Below are positions 2,852 through 3,519 of a stretch of DNA of 64,000 nucleotides, piece after piece. Both the position numbers and the translations under genes were made by a program. How positions within the stretch are numbered: the stretch's first letter is position 1; each line of letters opens with the position of its first letter. The notes under the pieces were generated by a model that searched no databases, was not told the origin of the DNA, and worked only from the letters and a program-made list of their open reading frames with translations. This stretch comes from Hyphomicrobiales bacterium (GTDB lineage Bacteria; Pseudomonadota; Alphaproteobacteria; Rhizobiales; Rhizobiaceae), in contig UBNV01000006.1 of assembly GCA_900466945.1 (NCBI GenBank), forward strand, positions 434,001 to 498,000, read 5' to 3'.

Positions 2852-3256
2852 ATGATCATAGGCATCGGCAGCGATCTCATCGATATCCGCCGGATCGAGA
2901 AATCGATCGAGAAATTCGGCGAGAAGTTCACCGCGCGTTGTTTCACGGAAGAGGAGCAGGCGCGCTCGAACGGCCGCAAGGACTGCGCCGCCTCCTATGC
3001 CAAGCGTTTCGCCGCCAAGGAAGCCATGGCCAAGGCGCTCGGCACCGGTATTGCCGAGGGGGTCTTCTGGAAGGAAATGGGTGTGGTCAACCTGCCGAAT
3101 GGCAAACCCGGCCTCGAGCTGACCGGTGGGGCGGCAAAATGCCTCGAGCGCCTCCTGCCATCAGGGCATATCGCCCAGATCCATCTCACCATCACCGACG
3201 AATTTCCCTATGCCCAGGCATTCGTCATCGTCGAGGCCCTGCCGGAAAGCCGTTGA
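2852..3256 (+). CDS. acpS: Holo-[acyl-carrier-protein] synthase
   Basis: Transfers 4'-phosphopantetheine from CoA to a serine of acyl carrier protein, activating it for lipid synthesis. The product has 134 residues, the normal AcpS length. It opens with MIIGIGSDLIDIRRIE, which carries the metal-binding Asp, and has KRFAAKEAMAKALGTGI (about residues 50-66) with the conserved Glu. The ATG at 2852 lies one base after the DUF2062 stop; an in-frame start at 2810 would overlap that gene and add residues the family lacks. The last base of the TGA stop is also the first base of the long palindromic element at 3256. The likely substrate, AcpP, is encoded at 62975-63211. Confidence 0.95.
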   Translation: MIIGIGSDLIDIRRIEKSIEKFGEKFTARCFTEEEQARSNGRKDCAASYAKRFAAKEAMAKALGTGIAEGVFWKEMGVVNLPNGKPGLELTGGAAKCLERLLPSGHIAQIHLTITDEFPYAQAFVIVEALPESR

Positions 3257-3519
3257 TACCAAGTGTCGAAGATAGGAACCGATAGGATGGCTTCTTGCGG
3301 GTCTCTGGCTAGGCGCGGCGCGCTGGGCGATGCTGACGCATCGGCCAAGCGGCGCAACAACGCCAGGGCCCTGCAAGAAGCCACCTTTGGTCGGCTTCCC
3401 GCCCATTCTGGCGTCGTCGAGCTCCTTGACCGATGCGACAGCATCGCTCTTCGGATCTCTCCTAGCCAGAAAGGGCGGTCGAGCCGATCCTATGGGTTCC
3501 TATCTTCGACACTTGGTAT
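3256..3519. repeat. 264-bp nested palindromic element, RIME/MITE-like
   Basis: Terminal inverted repeats of 33 bp (3256-3288 and 3487-3519; 32 of 33 match; ends read ATACCAAGTGTCGAAGATAG) enclose two further hairpins. In the left arm 3289-3309 pairs with 3362-3382 (20 of 21 positions counting G-U pairs). In the right arm 3393-3412 pairs with 3465-3485. Each arm carries a small inner hairpin built on GATGC-N4-GCATC (3329-3342 and its counterpart near 3433-3446). The two arms are diverged inverted copies sharing TCTGGCTAGG and ACGCCAG modules. No credible coding frame lies inside. It resembles rhizobial intergenic mosaic elements in style; membership in a named family is not established here. 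The 99 bases from 3520 to 3618 hold only the lepB leader. Confidence 0.9.

Follow-up and report, generated by a model that had tools for sequence, protein, structure and literature searches.

Results

A palindrome in the acpS stop codon

The window, by which we mean the whole 64,000-nucleotide stretch of DNA that was analyzed, carries two forward-strand reading frames that the original prediction named acpS (2852–3256) and lepB (3619–4356). Between these host genes lies a palindromic element of 262 bp (3257–3518, forward strand), which begins TACCAAG and ends CTTGGTA. Its limits follow from the comparison of filled and empty sites, where the distance to the LepB core is 407 and 142 bases, respectively, a difference of 262 + 3. 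The remaining three bases are a target duplication, with a left TGA at 3254–3256, which is the acpS stop codon, and a right TGA at 3519–3521. The palindrome had been predicted to span 3256–3519 and to abut acpS exactly. The palindrome stood, and the stop codon is indeed involved, but as the duplicated target; the outermost A and T of the predicted span are part of the duplication, and the element proper is 3257–3518.

The predicted 33-bp outer inverted repeats (3256–3288 and 3487–3519) were complementary at 32 of 33 positions (97%). Within the element, the left (3257–3288, forward) and right (3487–3518, reverse) terminal inverted repeats were assigned from this complementarity, and both are kept in copies. 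Next to them lie two hairpin arms, arm 1 at 3288–3380 in the plus orientation and arm 2 at 3394–3486 in the minus orientation. They scored 99.4 and 86.9 bits with R1, a covariance model of one arm whose training set included both of them as well as rows from genomes G044, G055, and G058. The linker between the arms (3381–3393, no orientation) was delimited by the fold and by the R1 arm limits. The arms proved to be diverged inverted copies of one another, as had been claimed, with 76% identity over 63 nt, and the self-pairing claimed for them was found in arm 1, where a self-complementary stretch of 22 nt pairs at 86%.

As a single strand the element had a predicted folding energy of −176.7 kcal/mol, compared with −99.4 ± 5.0 kcal/mol for 200 dinucleotide shuffles (z −15.6), none of which folded as well. 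The predicted fold is a long end stem bearing two long hairpins. Together with the copies described below, it bears out the original view of a structured, repeated palindrome with covarying arms, laid out as a three-way junction in the style of the rhizobial mosaic repeats. Even with up to 3 mismatches allowed, the element's end sequence was not found elsewhere in the window. There is no transposase gene inside the 262 bp, which are crossed only by a 119-codon frame, too short for a transposase. That frame (window positions 3263–3622) stays open across the whole element into the start of lepB, probably by chance.

The acpS-lepB junction in the genus

Homologues of acpS were found in 46 of 63 genomes of the genus, and 30 of these 46 were read through to lepB. 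Empty sites, which had been proposed as a check, were the rule: 27 of the 30 junctions read were empty, two carried 262 bp, and one carried 44 bp. The distance from the stop codon to the LepB core was 137 to 163 bases at empty junctions (most commonly 142), 407 in the window genome and in G081, and 189 in G002. The excess over the commonest empty length is thus 265 in the first two genomes and 47 in the third, in each case the length of the element plus 3, and an extra TGA is present at all three filled junctions. The palindrome is therefore an insertion with target duplication and not merely an abutting repeat.

The 44-bp form in G002 sits at the identical acpS TGA. Several genomes closer to the window by acpS identity than G002 have an empty junction, so that a separate second insertion in G002 appears likelier than an old insertion that was repeatedly lost. 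In the window copy and in its G081 ortholog, both end repeats carry an identical T-to-A change.

Copies, hosts, and target

The window's own genome holds a single copy of the element, and R1 detected only its two arms there. A singleton without homologues was ruled out by the search for further copies, since the 24-bp end was present at up to 3 mismatches in 20 of the 63 genus genomes, the own genome included, several of them with many dispersed full copies. A pattern scan of a species-level genome set gave at least 120 stretches with matches. Hosts among the 80 matches listed were Rhizobium, Neorhizobium, Ensifer/Sinorhizobium, Shinella, Xaviernesmea, Peteryoungia, an Allorhizobium bin, and an Agrobacterium strain. 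Among 72,556 plasmid records there was one whole-element match, at 95%, in Agrobacterium sp. MA01.

We pooled 131 elements (64 from the genus stretches and 67 from 120 named stretches) at 116 sites; a duplicate pair, L136/L222, is still among the 131 and was counted as one site. Exactly 262 bp was the length of 43 of the 131. At the 101 sites with flanks of at least 450 bp, TNA stood on both sides of the element at 70 and was missing on one or both sides at 31. The N was the same on both sides at 56 of the 70 TNA sites, where composition predicts 30% (p 1e-17). The base before the element was C in 71 of 131 and the base after it G in 69 of 131. The element thus has TACC and GGTA at its ends, duplicates 3 bp of the form TNA, and prefers C-TNA-G.

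Insertions in stop codons

Both TAA and TGA fit TNA, on either strand, and the duplication therefore rebuilds a stop codon into which the element inserts. Nine of 56 clean sites fell inside predicted ORFs. At the other 47, the insertion was in a stop codon 27 times, compared with an expectation of 15.0 ± 2.0 based on the TNA triplets within those gaps, stop codons included; genes were called by codon-position GC, and the count of 27 depends on this ORF calling. An earlier, loose control had given 30 of 56 against 67 of 805. A second control gave 21 of 33 against 21.6 expected, but its gap had collapsed onto the stop codon and it had no power.

It is an even question whether this excess reflects survival only, with no targeting, insertions elsewhere in gaps being harmful to regulation and lost. 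The count cannot separate targeting from survival, and clean sites do occur within predicted ORFs; on the other hand, the control was limited to TNA triplets of the same gap, and the difference was still 27 to 15. Insertion into stop codons would explain how these repeats accumulate without breaking genes.

Short, long, and composite forms

Arm-less forms of 42 to 78 bp also exist, and the TNA duplication was intact in 17 of 33. The arms may for this reason be dispensable for movement, unless the short forms are deletion products. We do not take deletion between direct repeats of at least 3 bp to be their general origin, as it fits only 10 of the 33; end joins with up to 3 mismatches fit 23 of the 33. 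At one site where G017 has a 262-bp copy, the form in G032 measures about 70 bp (L008, L075), which makes it probable that short forms sometimes arise in place.

Other copies, of about 158 bp, have one arm, and forms of 352–353 bp with a four-hairpin fold (L157:6780-7132 and L170:6712-7063) have the same kind of ends and come from a subfamily whose repeats contain GATTGCG. A 389-bp copy (L183:1951-2339) contains a run of N with identical sequence on both of its edges, and its length is probably due to an assembly gap rather than to a longer element. At L147:1061 (minus strand) the end repeat is broken after CCTATAG by GAGCATCGGACCGAAAAGTGCGAACC..., which looks like a repeat inserted in a repeat.

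Pairing between lineages and at single sites

Of 79 copies of 250–285 bp, the 65 alignable to the window's subfamily were placed on a tree. In these 65 two-arm copies, 89 to 98% of stem cells were paired, depending on the region. Failure of the copies to conserve pairing had been named as grounds for abandoning the reading, and pairing was retained across divergent copies. In a parsimony count on this single tree, taking the fold of the window copy as the reference, 117 of 195 changes at paired positions on terminal branches broke the pair, compared with 31 of 109 on internal branches. The ratio of single breaks to compensated double changes was 114 to 21 on terminal branches and 27 to 35 on internal ones (Fisher p 1.4e-8).

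We also compared copies resident at the same site, which formed eight groups. Seven of them, with 2 to 19 differences each, contained no compensated pair, while the eighth, L010/L012, had 22 differences and three compensated pairs. With only 2 to 22 differences per group, there was little opportunity for compensation. Constraint seems to fall on the lineage that moves, with the fold decaying in place. A fold that is kept over the history of a moving lineage and decays where it has landed speaks, on small numbers, against a host function at each site. The original prediction had taken change with kept pairing as a mark of selection on the fold. The pairing does covary between lineages, but this is no proof of a host function, with one of eight same-site groups compensated.

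Paired changes could also come from template switching in quasi-palindromes at replication, where one side of a stem is copied from the other; such switching has been proposed as a means of creating and maintaining hairpins (PMC8794818). The identical T-to-A change in both end repeats of the window copy and its G081 ortholog is what such copying would leave. Resident copies, however, should be corrected too, and seven of the eight same-site groups were uncompensated, if with few differences each. Stem correction also gives no explanation for the arm core, which keeps partly unpaired bases (AGG opposite AAC) across genera. We therefore hold template switching to be a rather unlikely source of the covariation.

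Much less probable still is that the hairpins serve the host as RNA, acting in an acpS-lepB transcript as a terminator, processing, or stability element. The predicted RNA fold is strong and the element lies between two co-directional genes, but 27 of 30 relatives do without it. A scan of the element found no promoter-like or terminator-like site. No Rfam family reached its gathering score (best 41.9 bits, compared with 137); four matches, of which three were to microRNA families, fell far short of it and were discarded. Across 28 divergent arms, G.T cells outnumbered A.C cells by 65 to 35 in the arm orientation, as RNA pairing would favor, yet when distinct events were counted in the 65 closer copies the excess was weak (37 to 26, p 0.21). 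The strand bias of the mismatches does not decide between RNA and DNA.

The two-arm structure outside the Rhizobiaceae

A conserved core is shared by the arms of the element and by those of relatives in other families, and the arms can be aligned around it. Our arm alignment, A1, holds 28 rows, namely the two window arms and 26 of 29 non-redundant arms; two arms with long inserts (L217) and one truncated arm (L187) were left out. In these 28 divergent arms, 84.5% of cells were paired, compared with 33–39% for slid structures, a comparison that favors the former in that the structure was taken from one row of the alignment. Double-change cells numbered 174, against 68 ± 8 after shuffling.

The repeats had been assigned to a rhizobial style, and this proved too narrow, as searches of the order, class, and phylum found the arm outside the Rhizobiaceae. 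At E ≤ 1e-4, where the E-values are rough, R1 had matches in 54 of 297 genomes of the order (37 of 123 genera), 32 of 289 genomes of the class, and 25 of 299 genomes of the phylum, 18 of the latter being outside the class. The three draws of genomes overlap partly and each contains the window genome. At most 14 candidates were scored per genome, so that copy numbers are lower bounds. There was no R1 match in 12 other genomes of the same family among those listed.

Because R1 sees one arm only, the occurrence of arms in pairs is an independent check. Converging arm pairs were present in 32 of the 41 loci examined out of 43 fetched (19 of 27 and 13 of 14). Of the remaining loci, L319 had both matches on one strand and eight had a single arm. 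The arms were spaced 105–111 bases start to start in 27 of the 31 loci uncut by a contig end, and 120–140 in the other four. We aligned the sequences outward of the arms in 34 loci (29 of the 41 and five others) and observed outer inverted repeats in all 34, with local scores of 34–68, compared with at most 21 in 680 shuffled flanks. When flanks were paired with those of other loci, 35 of 1122 pairings reached a score of 34, which is what related families would give.

The terminal repeats themselves vary by host. By eye, TACC tips stand next to TNA, and GAGC or GTGC tips next to a CTAG-like TA. Outside the class, L350, L351, and L354 have two arms and outer repeats. In G058, which belongs to another family, two sister families occur (L014 and L312), with ends TACCTCGTC... 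and TACCAACGGTG..., respectively. What stands out is that different transposon ends carry a conserved two-arm structure. We found no description of a two-arm class in the open-access literature, a search that leaves subscription papers largely outside and is thus weak on what is in print.

Search for a transposase

Among the matches listed, which give partial coverage (one search was without G000, G002, G016, G081, and G082), there was no transposase-bearing copy with these ends, and none of 15 DDE_Tnp_1 loci and 17 DUF4096 loci lay between such ends. A DDE_Tnp_1 gene fragment at the start of a contig in G078 has next to it two diverged family ends, which are separated by 176 bp (L260:453-628). 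Two candidates were set aside. A 1.77-kb end pair in G023 (C22), considered as an autonomous partner, has diverging ends around what by eye resembles two regulator genes rather than an insertion sequence. An 846-bp DUF4096-type element (L364:956-1801) in the MITE-rich genome G023 has other ends, GGCTCAGGAC, and a TA duplication.

Discussion

Mode of movement

The exact TGA duplication, the empty sites, and the same TNA on both sides at 56 of 70 sites make the element MITE-like. We consider it probable that it is a non-autonomous MITE moved in trans by a putative DDE-type transposase, with arms that are predicted to act in transposition. The TA or TNA duplication points to a transposase of the IS5 kind as the likely one. 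An enzyme of this kind, supplied in trans, would have cut the element, and the element would have inserted into the acpS stop codon, where the TGA duplication would have rebuilt the stop. The duplication and the empty sites are observed, as are the scattered copies that share these ends, the TNA target, and the excess in stop codons. The arms might aid the transposase as an extruded cruciform, as a single-strand hairpin, or as protein sites, and the host would gain nothing from the element. For the arms, the observations are that pairing is kept between lineages yet more often lost through recent changes, and that a homologous two-arm core occurs elsewhere with other ends. That the element moves as a single-strand hairpin on which an HUH or tyrosine enzyme acts, as REP or attC elements do, is the reading to which we give least credence: arms that are conserved while their stems vary, and that keep certain bases unpaired, recall attC or REP hairpins, but a 3-bp target duplication with exact empty sites would not usually be expected on either route.

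On the preferred reading, that of a trans-mobilized MITE, the sequence between acpS and lepB is likely a very small transposon, and its fold would benefit its own movement and not the host. We suggest, more tentatively and at somewhat less than even confidence, that it belongs to a Proteobacteria-wide set of mobile elements whose conserved core is a DNA fold instead of a protein, a pair of converging hairpin arms about 105 bp apart, and that this transposition cassette has repeatedly been recruited by different transposases. With the same reserve, the sign of such recruitment would be that terminal repeats of the TACC, GAGC, and GTGC types have been exchanged around a body of about 265 bp with two arms, the member in the window possibly being one that hides in TNA-rebuilt stops. 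If the arms are kept because movement requires them, what a widespread mobile element passes on would be structure and not protein, and for one class of bacterial repeats covariation could no longer be read, as it usually is, as the sign of a functional host RNA. With the arm model, such repeats can be found.

Comparison with known systems

REP/BIME sequences and REPINs are, like the element, hairpin repeats in gaps, but the element has a target duplication and long terminal repeats. REP/RAYT elements are not known to duplicate their target, whereas the element has a duplication of 3 bp.

Among known repeats, RIME and Bru-RS are the most natural neighbors of the element. The Rhizobium intergenic mosaic elements RIME1 and RIME2 are reportedly about 108 bp long with two palindromes (Osteras 1995). 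They share with the element that they are intergenic palindromic repeats of the Rhizobiaceae, and at about 108 bp versus 262 bp they are set apart by their description. In the chvI-chvG regions of three Ensifer/Sinorhizobium genomes there was no match to our elements and no large palindrome; that of L296 has one 18-bp inverted repeat.

Insertion sequences of the IS5 family have in common with the element the duplication of TA or TNA and a palindromic C-TNA-G or CTAG target. IS711 is a member of this family, and insertion sequences of the IS1031 type duplicate TNA. In our data TNA is duplicated by the element and, by eye, TA by its sister families. Unlike the IS5-family sequences, the element has no transposase, and no insertion sequence with its ends was found in our searches. 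Brucella, the host of the Bru-RS1/RS2 repeats, belongs to the same order as the host of the window. IS711 duplicates the TA of YTAR, and Bru-RS1/RS2 are palindromic repeats of 103–105 bp associated with an insertion sequence that does so (PMC2267715, PMC2266754). The likeness to the element thus lies in palindromic repeats, the same host order, and an association with insertion sequences; in length, Bru-RS1/RS2 correspond to about one arm of the element.

With bacterial MITEs, such as MITEAba12 (PMC6382973), the element shares that it is short, non-coding, and dispersed; it has terminal inverted repeats (32 of 33), a target duplication with empty sites, and no transposase inside. As MITEs are usually understood, their interiors are free to vary. 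What distinguishes the element from such MITEs is its interior, a converging pair of hairpin arms that it holds in common with relatives that have other terminal repeats and occur in other classes of the phylum.
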